DNA of 64,000 nt from assembly GCA_012845835.1 (NCBI GenBank), contig JABAKD010000018.1, positions 434,001 through 498,000 of the forward strand. The letters run 5' to 3'. This DNA is from Undaria pinnatifida. Its lineage: Eukaryota > Sar > Phaeophyceae > Laminariales > Alariaceae. The position numbers were made by a program, and so were the translations under genes. Of this stretch, positions 20,122 through 63,008 are shown one piece after another; within the stretch, counting starts at the first letter, position 1; every line of letters starts with the position of its first letter. Under the pieces are notes generated by a model, which was given only the letters and a program-made list of their open reading frames with translations, made no database searches and was not told where the DNA came from.

Positions 20122-20151
20122 TCCCTGCGCAGTGCCATTCTATTCCCCCCC

Positions 20152-28620: not shown

Positions 28621-28675
28621 TTAAATAGTAAGATTCCCACGAATATCCTCGGCGAGGTAATTTGGTATACTGGTT

Positions 28676-30620: not shown

Positions 30621-30654
30621 ATAACAAATTTAATGTACGATGTGTTTTTTTATC

Positions 30655-31365: not shown

Positions 31366-31369
31366 TATA

Positions 31370-32310: not shown

Positions 32311-32335
32311 TTTTATACGCGTGGTATATTGATAG

Positions 32336-34316: not shown

Positions 34317-34512
34317 ATGACCATGGAAAGACGTGGTGCTGGGCGGCATTCAAATGTGTCTGCTGCTGCTGTGTCAGTGTTGCTCGTCTCGATCCAGTGT
34401 GCAACTGCCCGAGCTGACCCCACAGGGACTCTTTTTTTGAACACAGGCACTCCCAGGGCGATGGGAGCAGGGCCGACAGTCGAGGTGTACCCAGCTGGTG
34501 GGGCACACAAAG
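34317..34512 (+). CDS. Proposed first exon with signal peptide
   Basis: ATG at 34317. The frame starts with a basic stretch (MERRGAGRH), a hydrophobic core (VSAAAVSVLLVSIQC) and an A-x-A type cleavage site (ATARA before DP), a textbook secretory signal. It ends at a good donor (AAAG before GTAAGC, 34513) in phase 1. That phase fits an acceptor at 38407 (TTCTCAG) whose first two bases complete the codon. It is linked to the tyrosinase exons by phase and logic only; no transcript evidence is available. Confidence 0.45.
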
Positions 34513-37500: not shown

Positions 37501-40500
37501 AAACAGGGAAACAGGCGAAAGGAAGAAACGCGTGAAAAGGAGCCGGGGGGGTGGCGGATATCTTTCAGCCAACACGCAAAAAAACTATTGCCCAAAATTT
37601 TTCGAGTGAACAACAAAGAAAGAGGGAAAGAACACAGAGCTGACAAAAGACAACATAGTAAACATAGACGAGCAGCTAAAGGATACGCCGCAACTCCGTA
37701 TTACAAACCAGGTATCTGCAACAACAAAAATACACGACAGTCCTTAAAAACGAGGAGTACAACACTTAAAGAGGGAGGAAGAGAGGGTTTGAAGGGGGGG
37801 TTGGGGGAGAGCCGGACAAGTACTGTAACTCATTCGCCAGCATTGGATGGGTTTCCGTACTATAACATGGCGTGTTTATTGGACGTGTCAAATACTAAAT
37901 ACTATTAATAGCGAATATACTGGCCGGGTCAATCAGTCGATTAGTACTGCCAGTAGACTACTACGTCCAGTGCACACTGAGCCAGTGCCCAGCCTTACCA
38001 TTTCATGACGAAAAGTGGATTCGTGACGTCACCACATCTTTTTACCATCTTTGTCGGGAATTGTTTGTGGCTATTCTTGTCGCGTTGTGTTTGTCACGCA
38101 TTGAGCGCTATCTCGAGGGACTTTGTTTTTTCTACAGCCGTCCACTTTTTCGGCTCGTGGCGAAAAAAAAAACGAATAACACGATTTCGCCAAAACGTGT
38201 CCCGTTCTTGTGCTGTCGCTATTCGTGACAGATGATCGCGTTTATTGTTTGTTATATACCTTACCCTTACCCGGCCCCCATTGCCGCCACCGCCAACGCC
38301 GCCACCACCAAACCCGACGCCACCGCCACCGCCACCGCACCCACCGGCACCTACACCGCGGCAACAAGATGGAGATCCGCTTGGGAAGGACTCACCGTGG
38401 TTCTCAGGGTCGTCGAGCAAGGACGGTCCTGGCGATGTGTCTCTGGGGCTGGCGGTGAGCAGCGAATACAAGGCCATTACCGGCTCTCCCTGGCCTAACA
38501 TTGTCGAGCCGTACCGCAAGACGACTCTTACCGCCATCTCGCAGCTTGGTGATCCTGAAAGGGACTTCTACACGTGGTCGTTTGAGGATGGCACCACCTT
38601 AGAAGGAAGGTGAGACGCTCGCTACGGTAGGTGTAGTGACGCGTGCGACGGTAGAGGCACTGTACCTCTATTCATCGAGAACTTTTTTTCCTTAATGACG
38701 GGGCTCCTTAACCCCGAAATCCCACCCTATACTAAATTCAAGTAAAATTGTCCGCAAGAAGGGTTTCCAGTAGTGAAGGCGTTAACCCAAAACCTTCAGA
38801 ATATAATTATTGTTTCCTAAATCTGAAATATTTTCACACCTGGGTCATGGGTTTGGTTATCCGGTTGCTCTGTCGCTTTGCTCAAACTACGGATTTGTGT
38901 GGGGTATAGAGCTGCTGGAGTGTAAAGCGTAGGAAACAAAACGGTGCACCTTTCAATCGCATCATGGTGCCTAGCGCTGTGTTTGCCGAAACGACTCGGG
39001 TTTAACGTGGGGCACCTCAACTGAAGAGCTGATCAGTAAACTGGATACCCGCTTTAAGAGCGCCTCGTGACAAGCGGTAGCAAACGCCCTTAACTACACG
39101 TTGCTCTTATCTGTAGTGGGAAATGTGCATAGCTTTTAGGATAGGCGTGACATGCCGATTTGACCGCTCTCAAGTCCCGAACGCTCTTTTCCGGGGCGCT
39201 CTTAACCCCGTGTAGAGCCCTTAATCCCTCCCTATACTAAATTCAAGCAGTTTTTTCCCCAGAAAGGGTTTCCAGTAGCGAAGGCGGTAAATCGGGGTAC
39301 CCACAGTAGCACTGTTTATGCGAGAACGGTTCGAAATGACGTTGGCCTCCTCAACTGAACAACTATACAGTACCAGATCGACGTTTTGGATGGGTGGAAA
39401 TATCAGTTTCGTGTGCAGAACACACAACAGTAGTATAGACCTGTCATTAGCGGAGGGTTTGAGAGAACCCTCGATAGTTTCTACCGTCGAGAGACGCGAT
39501 ATCGGCTGACTATGTTCAGTTCTTCATGCCGTAGTGATCCCTCTACAGTGCCGTTGTGTGCACTATAGATGGAAATACCAGCACTGTGGCGACAACCGGC
39601 ACTGCTCCGCAACGCTGCCGCTACTTGTAATTTCCCATCTGTGCCAAGCGATATCAAAGGCACTATATCGGGCAACCGGCTCTACTCAACCCGCTCTATT
39701 GAGTCACCTATACTGTCCATGCGTATTCGTGTAAACCAGGGCTTTCCGCGGGTGGGATTACTTCTCGCGGGTCGGTTCGGGTCAGAGTGACCCGACCCAA
39801 TCGGTGATGTTTCAAACCCTGGCGTCCCGACCCAACCCCACCCGACCCCACCCGATCCGACCCGACCAGACCCGACCCGATCCGTGAGATTCCAAACACC
39901 TTCCGAAAACGCCTGGCGAGACTTTAAACCTCCTCACCCGTGAAAAACCCTGGTTGTAGCGTAGCTGGTAGGCGGTAGGATTGTTTAACTAGCTTAGGGC
40001 ACATTTGACACCACAGCGGATTATTGGGTGGGTGGCGCTGCTCCTCGCGCCAGGAGCTTCAGAATTCCTGGGCTCACCGCTATCGCAGCATTCATATGTT
40101 GTGCGCACACAGGTGTGGGCGTGATGGTCGGCGTGTGTGACTGCTAGTGAATACGCCATGTAGATCGTATGCTACCTCTACTCCCTTCCCCGGGAAGCTC
40201 CTCTCCTGGCACCAGCCCCAGGTCGTTCTTGCCCCAACCCAGTCACTCTGCCCCCCTAGCCCCTAGCCCCCCCTCCCCGCTCCGGTAGTGTACGCGAGCA
40301 TTTTTTCTTATTATATGAAATAAAGAGTGAAAACCGAGAAATCTCTGGGTTAGAGTTAGGGTTAGGGTTAGGGTTAGTGCTACTGCTGGGACTGTTGCCT
40401 GCTCGCACTCCGATGCGACTGCTTGCTACTAGGCTAGCCAGCTAGGTCGGGAAGATTCCACAACACCTCCGCAAGGGCGTGGCGCAATTGCAGTTCCAGA

Positions 40501-43500
40501 CTTGTATTCTAATTTCTATGTAGTTTTTTTAATTATTGGTGTAGGCAGTCCCCCCGCTCGCGACATCCGTTATTTCCTACTACCCCGCCTCCGTCCACTT
40601 CAGCCCCTCACCTCTACCCACTCCACCCTTTCCCCTTCCCCCGCCTCCTTTTTTCCATATTTTTGCTAACCCCTGTTTCCCCCTTACACACGTTACTTAT
40701 TTACCCCCACCGCCCCTGCCCCCCCAACCGCGATCCACGTATTTATCCCCACCGCCCCTGCCCCCCTAACCGCGATCCTCCCGTCGCCCCCTCCCCACCC
40801 ACTGCCACCCCCCCCTAGTCACCAATCGCTGCTACCTCCCCTCCGCTTCACCTCCTTACCCCTCCCGCGCTCCACACGCCCACTTGCCGGTTAGTTTTCT
40901 TGTACTTTTGTCAGAATGCGCGTAGTCAGGCTCTATCAAGAGTCCTAACTCGAGAGACCCCCTCCCACCCCCCCCTCCCCCCCCAAACACCCTTCCATTC
41001 CCATTCTACGCTACCCCACCCGGCCCGGGCTCCTGAGTCTCCCTTACCTTTCCATCTTGTCGCCCCCTCCCCCAACCCTTCCCCTAACCTTGATCTTTTT
41101 CACCTACAACCTCACCTCCCCCACGCTCTCCTTGCCAAACCTCCATCCCAATTCTTACCTACCCCCCCCCCCCGTCTGACCCCATATGCTCTGCATGCTC
41201 CATACCCCCGACCCCCATACCCCCCCCATCCCAACCCCACTCTGCCCCTCCCATATCCGCCACCCCACCTTTCCTGACCGTATCTATCCTTCGCTTGTGT
41301 CACCCACCGCCCCACCTACCCCGCCCTCTCCGTACCGCGCCCCACAATCGTTGCCCTCCTAACCCATCCACCGCCATCCCCCTCGGTTATTTCACCAGAC
41401 ATAACCACCCTACCTCCTATGCCCCCCCCCCCCTTAACACTACGAGTCGCCGAGTATCCCACGGTCCTTCGCGCTTGGTAGAAGCGTATCTTCTTGCTTT
41501 GTGAGAGCCGGACGTGCTCCGTCCACGACGTTATGGGGATGCGAGGGTCTTTGCTCCTAAGGACCACGGCCATGCGTGGTGTGACTATACCCCCCACCCC
41601 CCCACTCGCCCACCCACCCGCTCTCCCCCACGCAATTCGGCAACTCATCACGCGGTGTGTACAGGCACGTAGCGCATATATTCACGACGATCCACTCCAC
41701 TCCACCCCACCCCACCGCGCCCATCCGTACCCGACCCAGCCCGACCCGACTCCTGCCCCAACCCTTCCCCGCTTTGCCCCGCTACTCTGACCCCCCACCG
41801 TATCGATTTCATACCCCACCCCACCCCACCCTACCCCGTCGAACCCCTCATATGCTACCTGAGCCCAGCGCCTCATATGCGAGGGTCTATGCTCCTGAGG
41901 ACCACCGCCATGCATGCTGTGATTATCCTCTCACCCACCCATCCGCTCACCCCTCCGCCAATCGTCGATTTACCGCCCGGTGTGTACAGGCACGTGGAGC
42001 ATATGTTCACTACTGTTGGTCGGCAGCAGGTCACTCTATCACAGTCGTTCGCATCTACCGGAGAAACGTACACCACGGAGGCAACCATCATGGTCAAGGT
42101 GCGAGGCACTTGAAAAATCGAATATTCTCGTACAAGATGCGCCAGTAGTATTGAAACGCGTACAGAACAGGCCTCTTGTTATACATGGTACGGCACAGCG
42201 GTGCAATATTTTGTTTTTTGGAGTGTCCTCACTTGGACTTCTGTACCTCTCAGCCGAAACCAGATTTCGAGTAAACTTAAAATGCAAACCGGTGAACTAG
42301 CCTATGGCCTAGATGTACCGACGAAAAAAAACGGGGGAAAAAAAGGCGTTTCCGATGATTTTCGGTTAGGGAGCCACATCTTTCTCAGTTTTTTTTTTTG
42401 CCGAACAATGCTAACTCTATCGTAGCACGCGTCTTGTGTTACCAGTTTTCTTTTTGTTGCCGAACAGTATCAAGTCTATCGTAGCACGCGTCTTGTGGTG
42501 TGGCTCTCGTGCGGTTCCAATGTTATGAAATAGTATAGAACGGGTAACATATTTTGTGGCCCTTGTGTGGTTCCAGTATTAAGATGTACTTGGTAGTATA
42601 GAAGACGCGAAACATTGTGCCACCCGCTTGTGGTTCCAAATTTAGGATACATGGTAGAGAATGCGGAACATGGTGTGGAACACGGATTATTGTGCAACCG
42701 GCCTGTGGGTCCAGTGTTACACTGGAGCCGCCTATGCTAGACATTATGCTGTTTGTCGCGAAGCGAAACGTGTGATATTGGGGCCACCATCATGGTCAAC
42801 GCGCGAGGCCTGGAGAAAGCGAATTATTCGTATGGAGAACAGTATGGCCGGCGCTTGGTTCCATTATTAAGATGTAGTGTACAAAATATTATTGATTGCA
42901 TGGCCCGTGTGCGGATGCCATGGTTGGACTATTAAGTTAGCTCTACAGTTAAAATAAACGCGAAATAACGCCAATGAAAAAACAAGAATATGGCATATCT
43001 ATACCAAGATAAGAGGTGCACCATTTTTTTTCATGAAGCTACTCATTTAAGAAGCTCTGCGGTCCCCCCAAAAACTGATTTTGAGGTCAAACAAAGGTCA
43101 TTTTGTGGTAAAAAAAACCCATGGCCTGTGTATACAAGAAAAAAGTCGTAGTGCAAAAACAAGAATGAAAGAAATTCCGACGGCTTTGGGTTAAGGAGTC
43201 CCGTCGAAATCCAGAAAAATATTTTAGCAGAGAGAAGTGCATCCTCTATCGTAGCGCGCGTGAAATACATATGGGAGGGTCGAAAAATAGCAAGTTTTCA
43301 CCTTCCAGAGAGACGATATGGCGCGGCCCGCATGTTATTCCACCGTTACTGCCGCCGCCTGTGAGGGGCCTGCTGTGAGCCTACAAGCGAAACGCGGAAG
43401 GCAAGGTTCAGGCCGCCGTCATGGTTGAAGTGTGAGGCGTGTGGAAAAAAAAAGTTCTTGTTAGGTGTAAGCGTAACGTATGACGTGTGACGTGTGACAT

Positions 43501-46500
43501 TCAGGCCACGACCAGGGTTAAAGTGGGAGGCATGTAAAAAGAACAAATCCCGCTAGATATTTTCTTTCTTGTAAACGCGAAACGTACTGTTTGTCGACGA
43601 GCGAAACGTTCACCATTGGGGCGACCGACCATCACGGTCAAGGCTCGAGGCATAGAAAACCCAGTAATTCGTAAAGGGTATACCATGGAAAACGAAATGT
43701 TGTGTGACCATGGAAAACGTAATGTTGTGTGACCCGCGCATGGTTCCATTGTTAGGATATATTGTAGCAAAGGCGGCGTATTGCGTGGCCCGCGTGTGGT
43801 GCCAGTTATTTTTACTAGCAAGATACCTCTGGAGTTAAGATATACTCAAATTAACGCAATAAAAAACACTAATGACGTAAACTAGGATGAGAGGTACACC
43901 CGTTTTTTTATGGGGCTCTTCACACGAAAAAACACGCTACAGCGTAGATCCCGCGTAGTGCCACTATTCAGAGCATTTAGGTATAGCTCTTAGTTTTGAG
44001 CAGCAGAGCTGTTCAGGGGTCGGATCACGTCTCGCGGGTCGGATCGGAGCAGGGTGAACTGATATGACCCGTCCCGTGAGACTTGAAAACCTCCCGGCCG
44101 GACCCGAGCTGACCCGTGGTATTTGGACCACCTCCTGGCCCGACCCGACTCAACCCGCGAGTTGTTGAAGACCTCCTGTTCCGACCTCTGGGCCTAGCCA
44201 TGCCCCGTGAAAGTACCCGAGAAAGACGCGAACTGACGACTAAAAAATGAAATATATGCGATATCAGGGTAAATATTCAATGCAGTTAGCTTTTCACGCT
44301 CGAGAGAGATTGTGTGGTGCAACCTGCGTGTTGACCCATTAATACTGGAACCGCATACCTATTCAGAGAACCCACATGGTTAAAGTGTGAGGCATCAAAA
44401 ATAAAAAAAATGATTCCTATTGGATGGATGTACTGTAGTATGGTGAACGCGAAACTTCGTGTGACCTGCGCGTGGTTCGAATTTCCATCCGTGAACTCCC
44501 GCCATCTCACAGGTTTCGCTGTCCCCCTTTCTACCTTTCTACCAGTAATTGGTGGTAATGAGGCCCGACCTCAATATACCTGCAGGAGTCTAGTTTGCGA
44601 CGCTCTTGAACAATTGTGAAATATTAGCTGTGTTATTGCTTGACTATTGATAGCTCCAAGAGCGAGGCGGACCTGCATCCATAGGTTAAGTCGTTGTGAG
44701 GCAAGAAATAAAGACTACTTCATATTATGTGCAAGCGAAACGTACAATGCTCAGGCTGCCACCATGGATAAAATGTGAGGCATGCAAACAAAGAATAATA
44801 AAACTCGTATTTCATGTAGCAAGGGTTCAGCGAAAAATACCGTGTGACTAGTGTGTGGTTCCGATCTCCAAACCGTGCAACTCCAGCCATCGCACGACTT
44901 TAGCTGTCGCGCGTTCTGGAACCTTCCCGTATGTTGCTGACGCAGGCCGCGCTAGGAGTGGCACCTTTTGGTCACCGGTAAATTTGTGAATGACGCTGGG
45001 CTCCTTGACCGTAGATTTAGGGGAGGCCATTCTTTTTTTGCGTTCCGATGCTACTTTACACCTAGGCCGTGGGATTGATCTTCGGGTGGCGCTTGCTTTT
45101 TTGTGTCAAGTTATTGAGTTCGTTTTTGGAGGGGTGGGGGTGTAGAGCTCCAAGAGTGAGTGAGGAGTCTCCGAAAACAAAAATTCGCACATCTACCGGA
45201 GCATGTGTTTTCTGTCACCTAAGAACAGCATTTTTAGGAAAAAAATAGCATTTTTTTTTTCTTTTTGCAGTTCACTCCTTTTTGAGGTGGAAAAAACTGT
45301 GACCCGCACGGTGTCTGTCATCTGACAATGTGCGGCGTGAGCGTCGATCAAACCAAACGGCGAATCAGCAGCAAAGTAAGGACAGCGCCAAATCAAGAGT
45401 AAACGTATGACAACCGAATTCGGATTAACGCACGAACAGCCCTCCCGAACACCAACAACCCCATACCCAATTATTGTTGTTGTTTCTTACCTTTGCAGTA
45501 CGTACGGCGAGAGATCCGGCAGCTGACGGATAGAGACAGGGAGGCGTTTCTGACCGCGATGGAAGTCATCTACCGCCTTGACCCCAACGTCGGGAGAAGC
45601 CGCTACGGAGACGAGTTTAAGGTGGGCCGACGACGTATGGGAAGAACGCATGCCGTCCCCTTCCTTCTCCCGCGTACGCGAAACCGTCGAATCTCTCTAC
45701 TGCGATGGAGAAGGGGAATCAAGTACACCGCTCCCTTCCCCCCCGAAAGGCGACCCCGCCCCCCCCGCCGCCAGTGCGAAGCCATCACAACTCCCTACGG
45801 GATTTACTACGGGTGTGCGCGTCTGTTCGTTGTCATCAGTTGGTCTGGTCTGGGTCAGTTTGGCTTGTGTTTTGTTTTGTTTGGTTTGGTTCGTTTACTG
45901 CCGTTTTGAGACACGACGGAGGTTGTCTGCGTCCTTGACCCCGCCATCGGTAGAAGCCGTTGCGGATACGAGATCTGGGTGGGTTGATGATACAAGAAGG
46001 GAACTCCTCACCCGCCCGCGCTTTGAGTGCATGAAGTGTCGGCCTGGTCGGTGGAATTCCGACGTGCTCTGTCCCGCCATGGCAGGGGTGCGAGAGTGTT
46101 TTGTCTTCAAGACTGCGGCTATGCACGGAATTAACTACACCCCCACCAGAGGGAAACTCCCGCCCCTTGTTCCCTTGGCGAAAAAAAGTGGAACCCCTTG
46201 TTGTTTGCTTATAGCGCAGGCTTGCGTTGTTGTCGTGTTTTGGTGTAGTTTGATTGACAAGGGAGAAGAAAGTATTCCACATCCCCCCTCCCCTACCGTG
46301 TGAAGATACTGCAACTCCCTATGGATGCTTTGTAGGCGGGGTGTTTTGTAACGAATGCGTGCGTGCTTGTCGTCGTGGCCTGGTCTGGCTTGAATGACAA
46401 GGGGGAGGATGTGTATGCCATTCTCCTTTCGATCGCCCACCTCCCCTGTGTGGTGCAGCGCGACTCCCTACGGCTATGTGTAGCGAAGAGGTTCACAGTT

Positions 46501-49500
46501 GTCCTCGTTGTATGGTTGCCCCATGTTTCCATGGTCGCTGTTTTGTCTGCGTCCGTCATATTTCCCTCCCCCTATCGTCGCCCCGTCGTTATTTTCGTCA
46601 TGCGGTTAGCTCCTCGTTGTTTCTCTCGCCCCCCCCCCCCCCTTGCATGTTTCTGCGCTTTCCGCTGTCTGCCCATCCCGATTGTTGGATTGTCCCGTGC
46701 TTTGCGCGCTCCGAAGTTTATCTTGTTTCCCAAGTCTTTGTTTTTGTTCGTCCCGTTTTTTCCCGTCCCGAGTTTTCCCTTGCCATCATTTGCCCTTCGT
46801 GTTTCTTGTTCGTTCCGTTGCTCGCCTCGTTGCTGTCCATCCCATTTTTGTTCTTGTTTTTCCCGTTTTTGGCACGCACCGACTTTTTTTCGTCCCGTTT
46901 TATACTTATGGCGTTGGTTTGGTCGCCGCTCTATCAATTAAAAAAACAAATCCAGTCCCTTCGTCTGCCAGCCCGGTTTATCTTTCTCATCCCGCTGTCG
47001 TCTTGCTCGTCCCGTATTTTGCTTACCCCCGTTCCTTTTCTCTTCTCCATTCCCTTTTTTGCGTGCCCGATTGTGCTCTTATCCCGTTGTGTTCTGGTCC
47101 CTCAATTTTCTCGGCCCGTTTTTTTTCGCGTCACTGTTATTTTTTTCTGGCTATTTTGGCACGTCCCGTGTTTTGGTCGTCCCTTTTTTTATTCCGTCAG
47201 GTCGTATTCCCTCAACCTCTTTGCCGTGTGTATTTCGCCCCGTCGTCTGTCCGTGCCGTTGTTTTCTCGAGTTCTGTTGTGGTTTTGCTCGTCCCGTTGT
47301 TTGCTCGTGCCCGGTTCTTTTGCTTGTCCTCGTTGCGTTTTCCTATTGTCCAACGCTGTGCCCGTCCAGTTTTGTGCTCCACTTGTCGATGTTCGCCATG
47401 TGTTTCGCAGCGTTTTTTTTTTCTCCTCCCGGATTCTCCCGTTACCCGTGTTTTGTTCGCCCCGTGTCTCACCCGTCTCGTTGTTTTACTCGACCCACTT
47501 TCCATTTTCTTTCCTCTCCCCGTTTTCTGCCTGTCTCGTTTATTTCGTCTCGTTATTTGCGTTTTTTGTCCCGTGTTTTTCTCGTCCCTCGTTCTTTCCG
47601 CCCCCCCGTCTTCCGTTGCCTCGTTGTGTTGTGTGGTTGTCCATTGTGTGCTGGACCCATAATTTTGCACGGCCATTTTTTTCCTCTCGTTCCAGTTTAT
47701 CCGTGTCTTTTCTTTTCTCATCTCTTGCTATGGTTTCTTGAAAAGCATTGCTCTCTTTATCCTGTTGTTTCCTAGCCTATCCTATGCTTGTTACCCCTTC
47801 TCAAAATTGGCTTCGTCACGTTGCCGTTTTTTGTTATCTTGCTCGTGTTCCCAGAGCATCCACTACTTCGTTCAGATGCATCTTGAGGGAGCCGGAATCA
47901 CCGACTGCGACCACTGGCACGACGACGCGGGTAAGCTAGTTTGTTGTGGTTTTTTTCACGCCGTACGACAACTGGTTTAGCCTGGTTACAGTTTTGTTTT
48001 ACGCCTTGAGATAACTTGGTTTTCCCGTGTTTTTCTTCTTTTTCTTCTGCGAATGTCTGACACACGCCACGGTAAATGTGAACCGTTTTCCTTCTGAGGG
48101 CGGCGGCTTCAGCAGCTCTACACCCAACACAATAGTGATTTGGATAAACATGAAACGCCCTGCTCCATGAACAATCCAAGGCCTAGCTAGGTATACGACG
48201 AAAGTAAACTGCCGAAAAAAACCCCGACGTAACTCCGATGATTTTGGGTGGCATGAAGCCCCGTCACTCAGAAAACGCTTCAGCAAGAAAAAAACGCTCC
48301 CTCTATGGAAACCCTTCAGAGCCACTGAGAAGAGCATCCCACGCTAAATTCAAGTAAGTTGCACTGAGAAAAGCATCCCACGCTAAATTCAAGTAAGTTG
48401 TTTCCGAAAACGTAGAGGTGTACAATTTTCCTTCTGAGGGTCGTCGCTTGAGGAACTCTATACCCCACCCCCTCCAATCTTATTCAGAGCAAACTAAAAT
48501 TGCAACCCGATGGGGGATCTTAAGGCCTAGCTAGGTATACGACGAAACCAAACTGCAAAAAAAGAAAGCCGACGAAATCCCGGCGATTTTGTAGTTGAGG
48601 AAGCACCGTCACTCAGAAAACGTTTCAGCTCAAGAAAGCGCTACCTTCATGGAAGCCCTTTGGAGCCACTGAGAAGAACATTCCACGTTAAATTCAAGTG
48701 CACAATCCAATGTATAAACACATATTGCTCAATTCAAAACGAGAATGGCATTCCGACAATTTTGGGTCAAGACTGCCCGTTTTTTTTTTCAGAAACCGTT
48801 TTTTGCCCAAAACTGCTGTCTCTGCCGATGAATGCGTCGTTTATTAATATTATTGGCGAACTTTGGAGCTGATCCTGCCCCCACATGGTCAAATAAAAAA
48901 CAACATTTTGTTGAAAGTTGTAAAGCGGATGTGTACGTGGACACCCCGTCTTTGTCGTACACTTACTTGGACCTACACCAGTTTTTTTTTTTCTGTGATT
49001 GTTGAAAGTTCGACGCCGGTAAAACACATCCTGTGTTTTAAGGCATTACAGTAATATGTACCAGCCTCCGTGTTGTTGACAAATTCGTTAGAAGTTGGAA
49101 AAAAACGTAACCCTTAGAATTCCAATAACAATACCCTGGTACTAATTGATTGTTTTCGGGGGTGGAAGTTTTACGTAGTAACCCCGTCTTTTTCAGACAA
49201 GTTACTTGGAATTGGAGTAGTTTTTTTTTACGGTGACCATTGGAGAAACGACGCCGGCATGACGCATTGTGGTTTTTAACGCCTTACAGTAGTATGTGAC
49301 AACTCCCATGTTGTTGAGAAATTTCTTAGAATATTTGCAAAACCGTTGGAATTACACTTTTTTTAGCCGGGTAGTTTGTTTTTTTTGTTGCGGGGGAATT
49401 TTGAAGCTGGTGCTGCTGCGCATTGTCGGACGGGGGAAAAAATGATACTGAAACTGAGTTTTAGTAACCCCCTCATTTTCGGGCAAATTACTCGGATTTA

Positions 49501-52500
49501 GACTTGCTCGTTCTTTTTTATGAATGTGACCACTGGAAAAACAACGACGGCGTAACACATTGTACGTTTTAACGCCTTGCAATGTTGTACAACAACCTCC
49601 GTTTTGACCTCCGTTTTGTTGTTGGCAAGTTCCTCAGGCTTTGGGTGACACCCTTGGAATTTTGACATTTCATGGTGATTGATTGTTGTTTTTCAGGTGG
49701 ACGTTGAAGCCCATGCTACACATTGTTGGATGGAAAACGAAGTATTGATGAAAGTGACAAGGAGGCGTTTAGCAACCCCGTTTTTTTCGGAAACTTACTT
49801 GCAAATAGGGTTGTTCGTTTTTTTTGTGACTGTGGCCGTTGGAAAATCGACACCCGTATAACACGTTGTGCGTTTTCACGCCTTGGAACACTGCATAGCA
49901 TCGCCCGTTTTCTGATGGACAAATTCCTTAAAATCCGGGTAAAAACTCGTGAAATATGACCAAAAATACGTGAAATTTGACCAAATCCTTGAAATATTAC
50001 CGAATCCCTGAAATTTGGGTGAAACAAAAGATAGTTGACAAAATCTTTGGAATTGGACGAGTTGCTTAAAATATGGGCAAATCCTTGGGATCATAGTAGA
50101 TACAGGAGAGCGCACAAAAAAGACAAAAGCGAGCCACATTCCTGGAAAGGTCGAAACGACAAAAAAAACGGGGCGTTGCGATTTCTGTGCGAATCGAGAA
50201 AATGACGGGGGGTTTTTATAACCCCAACCCTACGTCTTTTTTTTTTCTTGATTTGATTTTAGTAAACACCCCCCCCCCCCCGCTCTGGCTCCTTGAGAAA
50301 AAATATGGTTAATATATATATATATGTAAAACATCGGTCGCCCCGGTGGCGTATCAGGTTATCGTCGAGCCTGGTATAGGTCAGTTTCGTGAGTTCGAGC
50401 CCCGCCGATTGCATACTCGTATTAAATCATTGGGACTTTTTCTTGTGCACAAATTGACTTGCGGGAAGCGCGAGAGCGTGAGTTAACAACTCTCGATGAA
50501 AAATCGACGAGCAGTGGGATTGCTGAACCCTATGCGCAAGAAAAATTAAAGGCAAGAACTGGGGGGGAAAAGGGACGACACCTGTGACCACGGCTTGTCC
50601 AGAAGCTGGAAAGTAGAAGTGTGAGAAAATAATAAGAATAATAAGAATAATACTATACATATATATATTGCCCCCTTGGTCGTTACAGCACGTTTGTTCT
50701 TGCGGTGGTGCAAGAGTACGTTCAACCTTGACGCGTTTTCGCCCCGCATTCCCGACGGGGCCCTCCAATCGATGGCCTTGCCTTCTATTTAACCCGCATC
50801 GGCGACTAGGCATCATGACGCACCACGTCGGGTTCACTCTGCTGTTCGAGCAAGCGCTGCAGGTCATCGATCCCTCCGTCAGCATCCCCTACTGGGAGTA
50901 CACCATAGAATGTGAGCGAGGACAAGGGATGGGGTGGGAGCGGTCGGTGGTGCCCGTCATAGCTGTCAGGAGACGACACGTCCACCCCTTGACCGACGGC
51001 AACGGCCGACGGCAAATTTTTCCCGATATTTTTGTTTGACTTACGCCACGCTACTTGGTTTTAGCGTGGATAGATCGGTTTGACACCCTTGACCGTTGGA
51101 CTTTGTCTCCTGACTGACCGTTGATTTACTTTAACTGACGCCAAAGTAGTAGGTTTTGGTGTGGACAGATCGGTTTGACACCCTTGGCCGCTGGGCGTTT
51201 TTCGTTTACTGGCTGTTACTTTATCTTGACTGGCGCCACACTACTAGGCTTTAGTATGGATAGATCGGTTTGACGCCCTTGACCGCTCGCTGGACGTTGT
51301 CTCTAGACTGACCGTCTCCTGACATATTTGATGTCAAGTCCCAGTTAAGTCATAGCTTTGATGTTTGCCTTAACCCTTTTGAGGCCCGTGAATAGGGACA
51401 AAAAAACGACTGACTGCGTCATTTTCAAGCTGTCTAGACCGTGAGCACGCAACGGTATGAGTACGATCCTGTTACATGCTGCGCGCGTCCCACACGAGAG
51501 AGTGTTTGCATGTTTATTGTTCGGACGCCAACTTTATTCATCGCGAACTATTAGTGGCCGACTAACCCCTTCAGAGCCCCGAAATCCCCCCTATACTACT
51601 TCCATGTAGTTTGACCTCGAAAACGGGTTTCCAGTTGTATAGGCGTTAGGTCGTGATCGTCAATTTCCGTCGCCAATGTTTCCCTGTGAGGTCTCCAAGT
51701 GGTTGCGTAAATTTTCGTGCTATGAGTATGATAGTGGGTTCTGGAGAGGATCCACCACATTGGATACGGTGCGCTGTTCGAGCAAGCGCTGCAGGTCATC
51801 GACCCCTCTGTCAACATCCCCTTCTGAGAACACACCGTAGATATAATGTGAAGACTGTTGGTATTGTTTTTGGCCAGCGTTGACCCGTTTGGGGCCTAAT
51901 TTCGGGCTTACGCAATTGAAGGGGGGGGTGACCGCGTGCACGTGATTCGATGCGAGTCGACGAGAGAAGAAGGGGCCTCAGTATTCTCGCGATAAAAATG
52001 AAGGCACACACCGTAGTGGGGAGGGGGAAAAAGAGCCTGCTGAGTGACCCAGGATCTGAAGTTACGTCTAGGGACGGATGAAGATAAAGAAACCGTGCGA
52101 GGATAATGATGGAATGCACTCTAACATTTTCCGTGCACAGAGTGGTTTGCATCGCCCTGTTGACCCTGGTACAAGCTAGTTCTAAGCGGAGTCGCCGACC
52201 TACTGTATAGCATTAATGAGGACACACACAGTTATGTCGGAGTAACACACACAGCTTGCAAACATGAGTTTCGACGATTTTTTCGATCTCACAGCTGGAG
52301 TGTATATTTATTTTTTTATGATATAGACTTTATGCATATGTATTTTGAACATTGGTACGTGCTTTCCCAACACTAAGAGATGCATGCTACGGCAAGAGTT
52401 GAGCCATATATTTTCTGAGGCTACTACTCACGTGAGGAGCTTCAGAACCAAAAGAACGGCTCATCCATACCGTAGAAGGCGTTTTGACGTTGTCTCATCT

Positions 52501-54978
52501 ACCTGTGTTGCGGCGATTTTGATTTGTGCGGCGTCGCCGGGGTCGGACTCGCACGGCTTCTCCGTGAATTGTCAGCGCAAAAATTTCGTTGCATCACCGT
52601 AACGTCTCGGCATATCAATCGGTGTTTCGACCAATGAATCAGCCCGACGCATCAATGTTTGGCCAATGAAACATGCCGAAACACCAGAATTCGGCCAATT
52701 AATGGGTTTGATCCCTTCTTTGGTAAACTCTACTGCTGCTGTGCTAGGTGATTAGTGTTTGCTGCGCAGCGTAGCTGGGGTTGGGAATTTCGGGTAACAT
52801 CCCTATGCTGTAATATGCCTCAAAATACTAGTGGTACTACAGTAGTGCGAATGTTGTTTCATTGATTTCTGCGACATTCTTGCGTAATTCGGGTGCAACC
52901 TTCACTGCTGTGTTCGGCGCCTCGGCGACTCATTTTTTTCGTAGCCTCGCTGGGTTTGGACTCGTACGGCGACTCCGTGATCTTCAGCCCCAACTGGCTG
53001 GGTGCTGCTTCGCCCGACAATGACTTCCACACCATCTCGGAGGGTCGCTGGGCTTTCCTTCCAATCAAGACGGTAAGGGTTTCCTACAAAGGGGAACGGA
53101 TTCGTGTATGGGGGGGGGGGCAGGGTGCAGAACTTTTGTCTCGGTCCGAAATGTTAGGGTTTCCTCTATACGGGAAGTGATTCCTATTTTTTTGTTTGGA
53201 GGTGCGGCGTGCATTACCTCACCAGACAGCATTTTGCACACCATCAGTAAGGGCCGCTTGGGCGTTTTTCCCGGTCACGTAGGTTAGGGTTTCCTGTGGA
53301 AACAGAGGCGGGGGGAAGAGATTCATAGAGGCTTAGGGTTCGGGGGGTGGGGCAGGGGAGAAAATGTTGCCACCAGATATGACCTTCGGCACTGCCTCTG
53401 AGAGTCGCTGATCTTTCCTCATTGGCAAGCAAGTGCGGGTCTCCTGTATAGGGGAAGGGATTCATGTATAGGGCGGGGTGGTGCTGAGCGTTTACTCCGG
53501 TCCATAAGAGTAGCGTTTCATACATAGGAGTGTGAGATTTATCGAGGGTTTTTGTTGTTTAATTGGGGGGGTGAATGGTCCCGCCAGAATAACCACGTCA
53601 TCAACGAGGGCCGCTGGGCGTTCCTCCTAGTCACACAGTAGATAAGGGTTTTCCTATGTGGGGAAAGGGACTCGCACTATTCGCGGGGAGGGGGCGGAGC
53701 TTTTGCCTCCGTCCAAAAGTTTGGCGTTTTCCTGCAGAGGCGAGGCACTCGAGAGGCAATTTGTTTTGTGGGGGGCAATTATCTGACCGGACAACGATGT
53801 CGACACCGTCATCATGGGTCATCAGGCCTTCCTATCGGTCAAGCAGATAAAGGAGTTTCGTGTGTAGGAGGGGTGGAGGGGTGGAGGGGTGCGAGGGTGC
53901 CGAGCGTTTCACCCGGCGGAGGCGGTAAATATTTATTATGTTGGGGAAGGGACTAAGGGAGATAGTTTGGCGGGGAAGGAGGGGGTGTGGAGGGCGGTGA
54001 GCGTCGGCGTTTTTCTGGTAAAGGTTAGCGTTTCCCTTTTGGGGGGTGGGATCTGTGGAGATGGTTGGAGTTGAGCGGGGGGGGGGCTGGTCGTTTTCTC
54101 CGGTGAACGCTACAAGTACGGTTTAGGTTTTTGTTCTTGTTCTTGTATAGGAAGCATTATATATTGTCCACAGCTGCACGAGCTTCGCCGCGCTCTTTGG
54201 AACACGGAGTGCTTTTGCGTTTTTTTACTTGTTATTGCTCATATTATTGTTCTGGTTCTTAACCTTGCTCAGTTCTTGTTCTTCTGCTTGTATAGGAAGC
54301 GTGGCCAACCGTCCACAACTCGTACGTGCTTCTTCGCCTGCTGTGTTTTCGGCCACGTTCGTGTTCGTGGTCTTATACCATCATTAATGTCCTACAAAAG
54401 TTCTTAATGTCGGTAATGTTCTGGTTTCTTGTTCTGGCTTTGGTATATGACGCGTGATAAACCTTCCACAATGGGTACGTGTTTCTTTGCGTTCATGCTG
54501 TCGTTATCGGTCTACAGTACTTGATATTCGCTTTTTGAAAGTTCATGTTATGTTGAAGTTCTTAATATTTATATTTTTTTTGTTTTTTATCTGAATATTT
54601 TTAATATATATAAATTATTTTCTTGTTCTTGTTCTTGTTCTTGTTCTTGTTCTTGTCCTTGTCCTTGTTCTTGTTCTTGTTCTTGTTCTCGTTCTGGCTC
54701 TTGTATTAGAAGCGTGGTCACCCTTCCACAACTCGTGCAGGTTTTTCTTGCTCTGTACAACACCGACGTCTCCAGCTCTTGTATTTGTTCTTGTTCATAT
54801 TTATTACCAACTGCAATATAACGTAATGCTTTTTGTACTTTTTATTCTGCTTGTTCTTGTTCTTTTTCTGACACAGGATACATGGTCAACTGTCCACAAC
54901 TCGTACGGGCTTCTTCGGGCCCCGTGGAACACGGACTCGACGCCCTACCTTACCCGTCATAACACCACCAACAGCAAG
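34317..54978 (+). CDS. Secreted tyrosinase-like type-3 copper oxidase gene, spliced and incomplete at 3' side
   Basis: Eight exons (34317-34512, 38408-38609, 41990-42098, 45499-45621, 47855-47930, 50810-50911, 52945-53072, 54877-54978) join with compatible phases into 346 codons. The parts are a signal peptide, an N-terminal beta-type domain (about residues 66-165) and a tyrosinase common central domain. Seen in the latter are YVRREIRQLTDRDREAF, HYFVQMHLEGAGITDC, DHWHDDAGIMTHHVGF and ALQVIDPSVSIPYWEYTI. The H-x8-H spacing followed by LLFE and PYWE is the CuA half of the type-3 copper site, which binds O2 for oxidation of phenols to quinones. The CuB half (H..VH, then HH...D) is not found before 64000, so the gene continues beyond or is truncated. 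Introns are 1.8-3.9 kb and full of repeats. The exact 5' exons are less certain than 41990-54978. Confidence 0.75.
35205..35470. repeat. TACCGNC-word minisatellite, block 1
   Basis: The words TACCGTC, TACCGCC and TACCGGC recur every 10-25 bases for some 260 bases (for example TCTACCGTCAAGAAACTACC). Confidence 0.7.
35765..36000. repeat. 98-bp tandem repeat
   Basis: AAGAGAAGTAG recurs at about 35776, 35874 and 35972, and GTTTGCATGAGACTGCTCAA at 35840 and 35938, giving a 98-base period. Confidence 0.8.
36010..36362. repeat. TACCGNC-word minisatellite, block 2, with 110-bp higher-order unit
   Basis: Same word family as 35205-35470. TTACCGGCAYRTTTT.GGTTTT and TTTCCGTCAAGGCAGTTACC recur 110 bases apart (36134 and 36244), so the short words are organised in a longer unit. 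Confidence 0.75.
38408..38609 (+). CDS. Tyrosinase-like gene, exon 2 (N-terminal domain)
   Basis: Encodes SEYKAITGSPWPNIVEPYRK followed by TTLTAISQLGDPERDFYTWS, and ends TTLEG plus AG of an Arg codon at a donor AAG/GTGAGA (38610). The downstream exon supplies the missing G. The 5' edge is uncertain: the frame is open upstream through a Pro-rich CCGCCACC tract to 38245, and TTCTCAG at 38401-38407 is only the best acceptor by phase. Confidence 0.65.
38639..38967. mobile_element. M1 MITE-like element, copy 7
   Basis: Left end ACGCGTGCGACGGTAGAGGC and right end GGTGCACCTTTCAATCGCATCATGG. The interior has ATGACGGGGCTCCTTAACCC and CATGGGTTTGGTTATCCGGT. At 329 bp it includes an extra inserted block near 38724-38800. 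Confidence 0.6.
39786..39895. repeat. CCCGACC word repeat
   Basis: Runs of GACCCGACCC, ACCCCACCCGA and GATCCGACCCG. A related block with spacer words (CGTGAGACTT.AAAACCTCC) is at 44030-44170. Confidence 0.7.
40350..40377 (+). repeat. Short interstitial telomere-like repeat
   Basis: TTAGAG followed by three TTAGGG units and TTAG. It is too short to be a telomere and sits inside an intron. Confidence 0.8.
41525..41990 (+). repeat. 325-340-bp duplication carrying a copy of the exon 3 acceptor
   Basis: GCGAGGGTCTTTGCTCCTAA (41541) and GCGAGGGTCTATGCTCCTGA (41879) begin two units. The first unit ends with TGTGTACAGGCACGTAGCGC at 41656, a degenerate copy of the true acceptor/exon start TGTGTACAGGCACGTGGAGC at 41981. 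Confidence 0.75.
41990..42098 (+). CDS. Tyrosinase-like gene, exon 3
   Basis: 109 bp, phase 2 in, phase 0 out. Acceptor TGTGTACAG; donor GTCAAG/GTGCGA. Encodes HVEHMFTTVGRQQVTLSQSF and then STGETYTTEATIMVK, an edge-strand pattern typical of the domain preceding the tyrosinase core. The final K joins directly to YVRRE of the next exon. Confidence 0.75.
42490..42705. repeat. About 61-bp tandem repeat
   Basis: GTGTGGTTCC-like words recur at 42506, 42567, 42627 and 42700 with intervening TTAGGATRTA and GTATAGAA blocks. Further single units occur near 43730 and 43795. Confidence 0.65.
43003..43260. mobile_element. M1 MITE-like element, copy 8 (reverse orientation)
   Basis: Starts CCAAGATAAGAGGTGCACC (degenerate end) and ends CATCCTCTATCGTAGCGCGCG. 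Contains GGCTTTGGGTTAAGGAGTCC, the reverse of the M1 core. Confidence 0.65.
45499..45621 (+). CDS. Tyrosinase-like gene, exon 4
   Basis: 123 bp, phase 0 both sides. Acceptor CTTTGCAG; donor TTTAAG/GTGGGC. Encodes YVRREIRQLTDRDREAFLTA then MEVIYRLDPNVGRSRYGDEF and K. The VRREIR.LT..DRE.F..A pattern is the conserved helix that opens the tyrosinase common central domain in this eukaryotic family. Confidence 0.85.
45622..47854 (+). other. Intron 4 of the tyrosinase-like gene
   Basis: Carries a degenerate copy of exon 4's 3' half (45921-45990) and a second GTGCGAG.GT repeat piece (46088-46130). Repeats around ACTCCCTAYGG lie at 45789, 46312 and 46463. A 1.1-kb pyrimidine-rich minisatellite (46690-47800) follows. 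Confidence 0.65.
46690..47800 (+). repeat. CTCGTCCCG degenerate minisatellite within intron 4
   Basis: Words such as TGCTCGTCCCGTTTTT and TTCCCGTTTTT recur every 15-30 bases. The plus strand is poor in A, so stop codons are rare and all three frames stay open for hundreds of codons (one for 421). The resulting Phe/Ser/Leu/Arg/Pro/Cys-rich translations are artefacts of composition. The repeated word resembles the acceptor tract TTGCTCGTGTTCCCAG at 47839-47854. Confidence 0.75.
47855..47930 (+). CDS. Tyrosinase-like gene, exon 5 (CuA histidines)
   Basis: 76 bp, phase 0 in, phase 1 out. Acceptor GTTCCCAG; donor GCGG/GTAAGC. Encodes SIHYFVQMHLEGAGITDCDH then WHDDA and the first base of Gly. The H in VQMHL and the second H of DHWHD are the expected first two CuA ligands; the Cys two residues before may form the thioether or disulfide seen in many tyrosinases. 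Confidence 0.85.
48070..48700 (-). repeat. Two tandem M1-derived half elements
   Basis: Both contain TTTTCCTTCTGAGGG, GGCCTAGCTAGGTATACGAC, GTCACTCAGAAAACG and TTCAAGTAAGTTG-like ends, about 340 bp apart. The M1 terminal inverted repeats are degenerate here. Confidence 0.6.
48850..49960 (+). repeat. Diverged tandem repeat, four units of 240-307 bp
   Basis: The block CGACGCCGGTAAAACACAT recurs as CGACGCCGGCATGACGCAT, CAACGACGGCGTAACACAT and CGACACCCGTATAACACGT at about 49010, 49249, 49541 and 49848. Each is preceded by an AACCCCGTCTTT-like block and a T-run and followed by ACGCCTTACAGTA-like sequence. Confidence 0.75.
50335..50660 (+). mobile_element. tRNA-derived SINE, copy 1
   Basis: Head CGGTCGCCCCGGTGGCGTAT resembles a tRNA with an A-box-like GGTGGCGTATCAGG and a B box GAGTTCGAGCCCC (50391-50403). 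The body (CACAAATTGACTTGCGGGAA, GGGACGACACCTGTGACCAC) matches 56277-56575. It ends in an AATAATAAG simple-repeat tail (50624-50655). The internal pol III promoter plus repeat tail define a SINE. It sits in tyrosinase intron 5. Confidence 0.8.
50810..50911 (+). CDS. Tyrosinase-like gene, exon 6 (third CuA histidine)
   Basis: 102 bp, phase 1 in, phase 1 out. Acceptor GCGACTAG; donor AGAAT/GTGAGC. Encodes IMTHHVGFTLLFEQALQVID then PSVSIPYWEYTIE. The second His of THH stands at x8 from the HWH histidine. LLFE and SIPYWE are the classic segment that closes the CuA half of tyrosinases. Confidence 0.9.
51040..51325 (+). repeat. 95-bp tandem repeat, three units
   Basis: Units begin at about 51043, 51138 and 51233. 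Each contains the block GATAGATCGGTTTGACRCCC and a CTGACCGTT-like end. Confidence 0.9.
51751..51853 (+). pseudogene. Degenerate duplicate of tyrosinase exon 6
   Basis: The block GCTGTTCGAGCAAGCGCTGC is identical to exon 6 and is followed by a near match over the next 50 bases. The Trp codon of PYWE is TGA, and the donor is changed (TAATGTGAAG). It would truncate the protein if spliced in. Confidence 0.9.
52128..52315 (+). repeat. R1 terminal segment alone
   Basis: Runs from TTTCCGTGCACAGAG to GCTGGAGTGTATATTTATTT without the R1 body, as a solo terminal repeat would. Confidence 0.75.
52945..53072 (+). CDS. Tyrosinase-like gene, exon 7
   Basis: 128 bp, phase 1 in, phase 0 out. Acceptor TTTCGTAG; donor AAGACG/GTAAGG. 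Encodes SLGLDSYGDSVIFSPNWLGA then ASPDNDFHTISEGRWAFLPI and KT. This is the post-CuA insert that in tyrosinases separates the two copper half-sites. Confidence 0.85.
53196..53870 (+). pseudogene. Four degenerate copies of tyrosinase exon 7 3' end
   Basis: Copies at about 53201-53299, 53371-53451, 53579-53661 and 53781-53867. Each keeps words of GACAATGACTTCCACACCAT, GAGGGTCGCTGGGC and the intron start GTAAGGGTTTCCT. Spacing is 150-212 bases. All are frame-disrupted. Confidence 0.85.
54149..54772 (+). pseudogene. Four degenerate copies of tyrosinase exon 8 5' end
   Basis: Copies at about 54151-54212, 54295-54345, 54449-54490 and 54710-54770. Each starts after a CTTGTATAG-like acceptor and keeps GTCCACAACTCGTACGGGCT-like words. 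The tract before each is TTGTTC repeats, most extended at 54622-54700. Confidence 0.85.
54877..54978 (+). CDS. Tyrosinase-like gene, exon 8 (last exon seen)
   Basis: 102 bp, phase 0 both sides. Acceptor TGACACAG; donor AGCAAG/GTATTT. Encodes DTWSTVHNSYGLLRAPWNTD then STPYLTRHNTTNSK, the segment that in this family precedes the CuB part. No following exon is recognisable in 54979-64000. Confidence 0.85.
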
Positions 54979-55281: not shown

Positions 55282-55471
55282 CAAGGCTTCCCAGTAGTGC
55301 CTGTAGCCCAGTATACCGGCACTACTCAGGGCACCGGCACTATTGATAATACGGTTTCTTCCAGTATTCCCGCACTATTCACGGCACCGTCACTATTGAG
55401 AATATATCTACTATCAATACACTAGACACCGGCACTATTGCGAATAGGGCTACTATCAAGACACTGTTAAA

Positions 55472-55905
55472 TTAATGGTGGGGGACACAGAGTGCCCCCT
55501 GCAGGTCTGCCAATTGAGCAGGTCCTCGGAGAGTACTCACTTTCGTTTCTTGGTAGAGATGTAGGTTTATTCGTTTCCACCAGAGCCCGGGATAGCTTCT
55601 GAGGTCGGAGGCACGTGCCTCCGATCTAATTCCTAACTTTCCCGAATATAAACCGCCAACCTTATCATACGAAACCCATCCAAATCATATCAAATTCGGA
55701 TAATTACAGGTCTTTCGAGGCCGTATCTTGACACTAGCCCACCCTGATGAGTCGCATATGCAGAAATATGGGAGATTCGGGGAAACTCCGGTTCTACGAA
55801 CTAGACCATGAGTCGAAGATGCGGCTCCTCAAAACCCACTCCCACACCTCTAACCGTCTGGCTATGGAGCCAGGAACACGCGAAGAAAATCAGTAGAAAT
55901 AAACG
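55472..55905. repeat. R3 repeat inserted in the minisatellite
   Basis: Starts TGTTAAATTAATGGTGGGGG, contains ACTAGCCCACCCTGATGAGT and GGGAGATTCGGGGAA, and resumes minisatellite after about 55905. It is homologous to 18771-19183 inside copia A. The size and TG start are compatible with a solo LTR. Confidence 0.6.
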
Positions 55906-56276
55906 GGCTGACACTATTGGGAATAGTGCTGCTATCAATGTACCGGCACTAATCAGGGCACAGGCACTATTGGGAAGATGAGTACTACCAATATACCGAC
56001 ACCGTTCAGGGCACGGGCACCATTGAGAATTTGGCTACTATCAATAATATCGGCACTATTCAGGGCACGGGCACTATTTGGAATATGGCTACTCTCTATG
56101 TACCGGCACTAGACAGGGCACCAGCACTATTGGGAATAGGGCTACTGTCTATATACTGGCACTACTCAGGGCACTGGCACTACTCAGGGCACTGGCACTA
56201 TTGGGAATAAGGCTACCATCAATATACCGCACTCTTCAGGTATTGAAATAGGGTTAGGGAATGGAGTAGTATTAGC

Positions 56277-56575
56277 CGGTCGCCCCGGTGGCGTATCAGG
56301 TTATTCTCGAGCCTGGTCTAGGTAAGTTTCGTGAGTTCGAATCCCGCCGAGAGCATACTCGTATAAATTCGTGGGGACTTTTTCTTGAGCACAAATTGAC
56401 TTGCGGAAAGCGCGCGAGCGTAAATTTGCAACACTCGATGGAAAATCGACGAGCAGTGGGACTGCTGCACCCTATGCGCGATAAAAATTGAAGGCAAAAA
56501 CCGGAGGGAGAAGGGACGACACCTGTGACCACGGCTTGTCCAGATGCTGGAAATTAGATGCGTGTGAAAAAAACA
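56277..56575 (+). mobile_element. tRNA-derived SINE, copy 2
   Basis: Same head (CGGTCGCCCCGGTGGCGTAT) and body as 50335-50660. The B box here is the canonical GAGTTCGAATCCC (56333-56345). The tail is A-rich (GAAAAAAACAAAC). Confidence 0.8.
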
Positions 56576-56582
56576 AACATGT

Positions 56583-56915
56583 ATTATAAAAATTAAAATA
56601 CACTCCAGCTGTGAGATCGAAGAATTCGTCGAAACTCATCTTTGCAAGCTGTGTGTGATACTCCGATCGCGCGCATTACGAGTTGTGTGTCCTCATTAAG
56701 GATATAGGTCGGCGACTCCCCTTACAACTACAGTGTAGCTATCAGGTTCAACAGGATGATTTTAGTCAGTCTGTGCGCGGAAACTATAAAACCCGTTTCT
56801 GAGGGGGACAAAATCTGACAGCTGTGAAGGGAAAGGGGGGCCTGGTTTTGATCAAAAGCGAGCGGGTTTGGAGGGGGGCGGGGGGGGGGGGGGGGAAGGG
56901 GCAATTTGTGCATGT
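56583..56915 (-). repeat. R1 repeat, reverse 3' half
   Basis: Runs from AAATTAAAATACACTCCAGC to the G-rich tract after GGTTTTGATCAAAAGCG. Nearly identical to 31373-31680, including GCGGAAACTATAAAACCCGT, so the two copies share a recent ancestor. Confidence 0.85.
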
Positions 56916-58129
56916 TTATATATATAGAGCTACTATGATATCAATACTTCGAAGTATGCTGGCATTATTCAGGGCACCAGCACTTTTGGGAATAGAGCTA
57001 CTATCAATATACCGGCACTATTCACGGCACCGGCACTATTGGTAATTGGGCAACTGTCAATATACCGGCACTGTTGGGAATATGGCTACTATTTTTTTAC
57101 CGGCACTATTCAGGGCACCGGCACTATTCACGACACCGGCACAATTGGTAATTGGGCAACTGTCAATGTATCGGCACTGCTGGGAATAGGGCTACTATTT
57201 ATATACCGGCACTATTCAGGGCACCGGCACTATTGGGAATAGGGCTACCATTAACATACCGGCACTATTCAGGGTACCGGCACAATGGACAATAGAGATA
57301 CTATTAGTATTCCCGCACTATCGAGGGCACCGGCACTATTGGGAATAGGGCTACTATCAATATACCGGCACTATTGAGGGCACCGGCACTATTGGGACTA
57401 GGGCTACTATCAATATGCCGGCACTATTTTGGGCGCCGGCACCATTGGGAATATGTCAACTATCAATGTACCGGCACTATTGGGAATAGGGTTACTATCA
57501 AGATTCCCGCACTATTCAAGGCACTGGCACTATTGGGTAGGGATACTAATTATATCAATACACCGGCACTATCGAAGGCACCGGCACTGCTCAGTATGTG
57601 GCTACCATCAATATGCTGGCACCATTCAGGGCACCGGCACTATTTAGTGCACCGGTACTATTGGGAATAGGGCTACTATCAACATACTGACACTATTCAG
57701 GGCACCGGCACTATTGGTATTTGGGCAACTATCAATATACTGACACTATTCAGGGCACCGGCACTAGTGGGAATGAGCTACTATCAATATTCCCGCACCA
57801 TTCAGGGCACCGGCACTATTGGGAATATGGCTGCTATCAATATACCCGCACTATTCAGGGCACCGGCACAATGGGGAATAGGGCTACAATCAATGTACCG
57901 GCACGATTTAGGGCACCGGCACTATTTAGCACTATTTAGACCAGGGCAACTATCAATGTACTGGCACTGTTTAAGGCACCGGCACTATTGTGAATTTGGC
58001 TGAGACACCGAAGGGTCCAACACCATTGACTCCTACACAACCGAGGTTACTCCGAGACTTGTAAAGTTTACCCTGCACAGTATATTGACCTGGCTGTCTT
58101 TGCAAACCTTTGCAGCAAGCTGCTAGTTT

Positions 58130-59160
58130 ACGAGGCACCTGCCGTGCATCGTCCGCATTGTTCCAGGTGCACACCTTATATACATCGGACTTCCACCTCC
58201 GTTCTCTCTGTATGACTGGTTCCGACACGTCACCTCCAGCCGCAAGCTTCGGAGGCACTTCCTATCCTCAGCGAGTGCAGAGCGTACTCTTCGGGTTTAC
58301 GCCCCGACTTTTCAACTATCTCTCTCAACGCTCATAACGCCTGACCACATATATCCCCACACACTTCCTTGCTCTCCCTGAATGGTACGAGGAAAGTGGC
58401 GCGTGTTCAGGTAGAACCGCAAAAACATGACGATAGTGTTAACAATAGAACAACGGCTCCGCCACCTTTACCCAACTCAGAACACGGGCCCCGAACCTCG
58501 CTCCGGGTACGTACAATGACGCTTCCAACTTGAGCCTGGTCGCCTTTATGACCGCGAATTCGCACCTCAACCCGATCAACACCACTTCATTGAAGACGCC
58601 TCAACTGTCTATCGCCGGAGAAAACAAAAACGCAACGTCACTTCGCGTGAGACAATGCGCTGGGTTCACCACACCTGAGCCATTGGCAAATACCTCATCG
58701 GACCTGGGTAAGATAAAAATAGCTCATGCCCAGACATAGCCGAAACACTCTACCCCCAGAACCCCAGGAAGATATAAGTTCCTGCCCCTTGATCAACATA
58801 TCTCACGATATGGGGAGCCGAACCCGCGGCCGTGTTCCCCCCAATGTATGCGATCGTGAGATACCTTGCAATACATTCTTGATCAACAGCGACCCGATCG
58901 ACAGCTCGATGCCAACATCAACCCGATGGAAATATTGGATCGCAGCTAGCTTACTCGAAATGGATCCGGCTTCATTGTCCTGTGACGCACAACCCCAAGC
59001 AGCGAAATCAATAGAAGCCCACACTATGGCCTCCTCCGACTCACATGGTCGAATATACCGGTCCTGTGCGGTTAACCCGCAAAAAGTGCACCAAGACCGG
59101 AAACCCGACGCGTAAGTTCTTTCAGACGATCGCGCAACTGATCGGCGGAGGTACTAGTGC
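58130..59160 (-). pseudogene. Decayed tyrosine recombinase (Crypton/DIRS-type)
   Basis: The core-binding part reads SSERTYASGFRSWCTFCGLT, then IVWASIDFAAWGCASQDNEA and LAAIQYFHRVDVGIELSIGS. The catalytic part shows Arg-x-(D)E (QVR then DEVFANGSG), NPAHCLTRSDVAFLF in an alternate frame, RIRGHKGDQAQ (the beta-hairpin Lys), ALHSLRIG (H-x-x-R) and RRWKSDVYKVCTWNN (Trp and Tyr nucleophile). All signature residues are present but spread over at least three frames with stops, so it is a fossil. Confidence 0.8.
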
Positions 59161-63000: not shown

Positions 63001-63008
63001 CTGATATC

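Follow-up and report, generated by a model that had tools for sequence, protein, structure and literature searches.

In the window, by which we mean the whole 64-kb stretch of DNA analyzed, the introns of a tyrosinase-like gene hold degenerate copies of the edges of neighboring exons. The reading we prefer, with a probability of about 0.75, is that this locus grew by many rounds of local, same-orientation duplication, and that exon edges were not sought by the process. The copies share the strand of the gene, with donor-side copies lying 3' of their exon and acceptor-side copies 5' of it (15 and 6, respectively, among the 21 aligned, an alignment that excludes a unit at 48.98 kb), and they are decayed, being about 54–80% alike within families.

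The tyrosinase-like gene

Seven exons of the gene, E2 to E8, were found on the plus strand between 38452 and 54978, and their compatible phases join them into a single open frame of 266 aa; E3 to E8 correspond to exons 3 to 8 of the first-pass annotation of this DNA. All seven end at a GT donor and six of the seven begin at an AG acceptor, the 5' end of E2 not being fixed. Exon E2 (38452..38609) codes for a PKD-like part, and is recognized by its open frame, the donor AAG/GTGAGA, a phase that fits E3 and a match to Pfam PKD_4 in the joined protein. The remaining coding exons are delimited by splice ends and phase: E3 (41990..42098, with AG/GT ends), E4 (45499..45621), E5 (47855..47930, carrying the motif DCDHWHDDAG), E6 (50810..50911), E7 (52945..53072) and E8 (54877..54978), the last one found. 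Pfam matches of the joined protein were PKD_4 (32.1 bits, cut-off 27), PKD (28.9 bits, cut-off 23.5) and the tyrosinase domain (31.4 bits, cut-off 22.6), and solved structures of tyrosinases and hemocyanins also match it. Since a simple motif search downstream found no exon resembling copper-B (CuB), the gene is probably incomplete in the window and would continue past E8.

One scan each of a viral contig collection and a genome contig collection found no relatives of the 266-aa protein, and Rfam and tRNA scans found nothing. The window has a base composition of 49.6% G+C; PMC6418280 gives 54–56% G+C for brown algal genomes, and reports a tyrosinase gene in them.

Exon-edge copies in the introns

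Each exon, extended by 120 bp at both ends, was used as a query against both strands of the whole window (nhmmer), and the best match per exon query in 100 block-shuffled versions of the gene region ranged from 4.3 to 6.6 bits (4.5 for E3). The copy counts of the first-pass annotation were all reproduced by these searches and by alignment: one acceptor-side and six donor-side copies for E3, one copy each for E4 and E6, one acceptor-side and four donor-side copies for E7, and four copies for E8. The copies are also more similar to the exons than shuffled sequence is, with scores above the shuffle maxima, in the case of three weak E3 copies by way of a profile.

The strongest match is the acceptor-side copy upstream of E3, which takes in upstream intron as well (41539..41734; 67.2 bits, with 47 of 68 exon and 92 of 113 intron positions identical). 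The donor-side copies downstream of E3 scored 17.2, 16.1, 10.0, 6.4, 6.2 and 4.5 bits, and the three weakest are unsafe when taken singly, as one does no better than the best shuffled match and, on the minus strand at 34.1–34.3 kb, an unrelated place scores 5.4 bits against the same query. A profile was built from E3 and the three strongest donor-side copies (42765..42829, 43594..43676 and 44737..44809, all aligned), with the weak ones left out. It recovers the latter, at 43381..43461, 43503..43548 and 44348..44402, with 31.9, 31.7 and 20.3 bits (E 4.8e-9, 5.4e-9 and 1.9e-5), against a null maximum of 9.7 bits.

The single donor-side copy of E4 (45902..46020; 31.5 bits) is identical at 56 of 76 exon and 30 of 42 intron positions. 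That of E6 (51753..51851; 51.9 bits) represents the 3' part of the exon, with 75 of 91 exon positions identical, and ends 4 bp past the donor (4 of 4 intron positions identical); it includes a 30-base identical run, lies 932 bp from its source and has no matching intron beyond those 4 bp. Four aligned donor-side copies follow E7 (53204..53324, 53365..53526, 53561..53733 and 53787..53916), with scores, from the highest down, of 46.2, 40.7, 25.2 and 18.0 bits. Upstream of the same exon is an acceptor-side copy (52503..52637) that scored 15.8 bits over query positions 100–245, where the exon occupies 121–249, and its local alignment covers 52503–52581 only. The four aligned copies belonging to E8 are all acceptor-side (54127..54208, 54256..54336, 54419..54487 and 54659..54767), and scored, from the highest down, 27.4, 21.6, 13.7 and 11.8 bits.

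Exon E5 probably has edge copies as well, on marginal evidence. A four-unit tandem array on the plus strand (48975..49940) shows strong unit-to-unit matches, and a profile of its units reaches 10.1 bits against the E5 donor (window E 0.02, null maximum 9.9), so that the units are probably donor-side E5 copies; for the unit at 48.98 kb, the alignment with E5 spans only 12 bp. For E2, no local copy was found at E<0.01, and in the window this query mainly matches an intron repeat present on both strands.

The first-pass annotation had described all copies as frame-broken, which overstates the decay, given that 7 of the 21 have neither indel nor stop over the aligned exon part, some of these parts being only 20–36 bp. 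Its statement that each copy carries the splice site stands for the 12 of 21 in which GT or AG is kept and falls for the rest, and as to the neighboring intron, which each copy was also said to carry, the match of the E6 copy is just the 4 bp mentioned above. In the codon-position comparison, agreement with the copies was 436 of 627 cells at positions 1 and 2, 188 of 317 at position 3 and 407 of 671 at intron positions; these sums cover E3, E4, E6, E7 and E8, leave out E5 and the acceptor-side copies of E3 and E7, and are drawn from copies that are not independent. E3 and E8 show the effect clearly and E7 slightly, whereas E4 shows the opposite. Taken together, this fits an exon under constraint whose copies decay freely, and the time since duplication would accordingly be long.

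Direct copies across the locus, their probable origin and alternative explanations

The window was cut into 150-bp tiles, and each was compared with the flanking 3 kb in both directions. Of 328 tiles within the gene, a direct copy was seen for 162 and an inverted one for 5 (E<1e-3), while four versions of the sequence shuffled in blocks (341 tiles per version) gave zero copies on either strand. This excess of direct over inverted copies, and the position of the exon-edge copies next to their source junction, lend good support to the earlier proposal that repeated local tandem duplication was the source. Direct-only bias is strong in the gene and rightward of it (35 direct and 0 inverted of 54 tiles at 55.2–58 kb; 41 and 0 of 118 at 58–64 kb), weaker at 1–14 kb (98 and 32 of 278), and absent at 30–38.4 kb (56 and 53 of 166). 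The last region (30000–38400), where, unlike in the gene, direct and inverted copies are about equal, is probably transposon sequence. Between 14 and 30 kb there were 18 direct and 10 inverted copies among 318 tiles.

Local direct copies are spread evenly through the introns, and account for 46% of the bases in introns and 54% of those in exons, with the reservation that the shuffle breaks simple repeats and that some of the 46% may be of low complexity (e.g., TTCTTG at 54620–54704). Splice junctions fall within them at 7 of 13 places, compared to a mean of 6.06 under circular shifting, and 40% of 436 shifts are as high; at E<0.01 the figures are 8 of 13, a mean of 6.5 and 29% of shifts. Because junctions are covered like shifted positions, and introns like exons, the exon edges appear to have been caught up in a general process rather than to have been its special target, and the earlier idea that it was exon-intron junctions that were being duplicated is not upheld. 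An alternative would be a process aimed at splice junctions, such as breaks tied to splicing or to R-loops forming at exon boundaries, by which boundaries are preferentially duplicated. It could account for the clear junction copies at five of the seven exons (a sixth probably having them too) and for the E6 copy stopping at the donor, but purely intronic arrays of like kind are also present, and junction targeting was rejected by the circular-shift test, although one gene gives that test low power; we consider this alternative improbable.

Purely intronic examples include a tandem duplication at 48072..48699 (plus strand; 280 aligned bases at an offset of 340, 77% identical), in which a younger 39-bp duplication is nested at 48323–48400, and a plus-strand tandem array with a period of about 95 in the intron after E6 (51027..51364), detected by tandem repeat search and self-alignment. 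Nested tandem duplications of young age occur in these introns, with 38 of 39 and 24 of 25 bases identical. In some pairs, the ratio of aligned length to offset is close to that of a head-to-tail arrangement (0.98 for 48927/49164, 0.82 for 48072/48412 and 0.77 for 53003/53365). The median offset over 44 pairs, from which zero-offset artifacts of chaining had been dropped, is 611 bp, and in many pairs the offset far exceeds the aligned length, so later events must have been superimposed on simple head-to-tail duplication. The E6 copy argues against simple tandem duplication in its case, and would not be explained by a single event of about 930 bp.

For that copy, a short piece 932 bp away and without flanking similarity, templated insertion during break repair would be a fitting source, with nearby sequence being copied into introns in short stretches. 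Such repair copies in both orientations. As a general explanation it is very unlikely, given the near absence of inverted copies among the tiles of the gene. Another alternative is an ordinary dispersed repeat or transposon family that once captured exon edges, which we regard as highly unlikely. Parts of the introns next to E2 and E8 do have matches elsewhere in the window, on one or both strands, but every exon has its own unit, and all matches to the edges of E3, E4, E6, E7 and E8 above the shuffle maximum lie in the adjacent intron and on the same strand, with the exception of the 5.4-bit minus-strand match of E3. To this extent, and within the 64-kb window, the ordinary transposon family considered in the first-pass annotation shows no sign of being the source of the copies. 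The suggestion from the same annotation that the copies are decoys, that is, functional or alternative splice sites retained for splicing regulation, is scarcely plausible, since the 12 copies keeping GT/AG and the 7 that are open might favor such a role, but this retention is at background (973 of 1906 other dinucleotides, or 51%) and shared constraint is not evident among copies that differ as much as these do.

Under the preferred reading of unaimed local duplication, stretches of about 25 to several hundred bases would have been duplicated in tandem, in many rounds over a long time, presumably by slippage or unequal exchange. A duplication spanning one splice junction would place an extra exon edge inside the adjacent intron, and as the outer, functional junction would still work, the mRNA need not change; the copies would be spliced out harmlessly. 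It is because single-junction duplications would leave the mRNA unchanged that the extra edges could survive and, being unconstrained, decay. Donor-side copies would then trail an exon downstream and acceptor-side copies upstream, and the sides on which they are found are those that contiguous duplication predicts. Duplications of whole exons may have been removed by selection. No copy with both junctions of an exon was found, and in the upstream E7 copy the profile alignment passes through nearly the whole exon. In a model of random placement, eight events would produce no whole-exon copy with a probability of 0.006 if units equal the nearest offsets, 0.09 if they do not exceed 200 bp and 0.29 if the limit is 150 bp, and as the outcome depends in this way on the assumed unit length, selection against whole-exon copies is suggestive at best.

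Comparison with known systems and other features of the window

The first-pass annotation knew of no standard name for this pattern, but one exists in lancelets, where repeats that extend across a splice junction, whether 5' or 3', and sit in the adjacent intron are called 'mirages' (PMC3087553, PMC3902484). In the literature searched, which leaves most subscription papers outside it, the pattern was found only for lancelets. Judging from the sequence, mirages would be the closest known system, and the exon-edge copies appear to share their anatomy while differing in age, extent and surroundings. According to these papers, mirage units likewise span the junction and adjoin their source within the intron, are similar in length to those found here (150–160 bp in the lancelet globin genes; PMC3087553), and keep the AG/GT signals in many, but not all, cases. 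Both the 5' and the 3' boundaries are duplicated in the present gene (15 donor-side and 6 acceptor-side copies), and there are tandem units spanning the exon-intron boundary, which for E3, E4, E7 and E8 combine exon and intron sequence (for E6 just 4 bp of intron), in head-to-tail arrays that are near-regular for E7 and less so for E3 and E8. Further traits by which mirages are recognized are normal mRNA splicing despite the repeats and copy numbers that are unstable between haplotypes or somatically; the sequence analyzed here represents one haplotype, and its seven exons join in an open frame. In contrast to the units of BflGb6, given as 81–100% alike in PMC3087553, those here are older and lack such homogenization (0.54–0.80 alike), a trait that is not strictly defining; the mirage units of PGBD5 are described as imperfect in PMC3902484. 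A further difference from the cases described there is that five or six of the seven exons of one gene are touched, and that its introns also abound in local duplications of other sequence.

Intron gain by tandem duplication (Hellsten et al.; Gao and Lynch, as presented in PMC3443670 and PMC4974935) also involves local tandem duplication that takes in exon sequence and splice signals, but in those accounts a new intron is made, whereas here existing introns lengthen. Several of the purely intronic arrays are intronic minisatellites or tandem arrays of the usual kind. The exon-edge families differ from these in having some units that take in the edge of an exon. Most of the units have also decayed beyond what a standard tandem repeat search picks up, and such a search did not list the copy families of exons 3, 7 and 8 as such.

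The gene offers one example of introns lengthening without transposons and catching exon edges as they grow. A wider proposal, which is tentative and rather doubtful at present, is that direct-only local duplication is the main source of intron length genome-wide, so that most exons would trail decayed edge fossils that record earlier exon sequence and feed new introns or exons. If general in this genome, the process would carry the mirage phenomenon beyond lancelets into another lineage, and the copies would serve as dated fossils of exon sequence. Such copies are a trap for gene prediction, as they resemble exons with splice sites.

Elsewhere in the window are remnants of copia-type retroelements (19672–21390, minus strand; 28661–29470, plus strand), with a GAG-pre-integrase match just under the Pfam cut-off and a weak gag match; judged by eye, the frame at 28.7–29.5 kb resembles the RNase H of copia elements, and it has no match in Pfam. 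Two other open frames lacking Pfam matches resemble, by eye, part of a mobile-element tyrosine recombinase (58806–59153, minus strand) and an esterase exon of another gene (4494–4874, plus strand), and no local copy pair in the pair list starts within the latter. A satellite-like array with a unit of about 53 bp (CCGGCACTATTGGGAATAGGGC...) follows the last exon found, at 55285–57995, and has direct copies but no inverted ones. Neither a satellite pattern nor a retroelement ORF had matches in the viral contig collection. A young tandem array occurs at 63006–63542, with 2.8 copies of a 192-bp unit and 94% matches.
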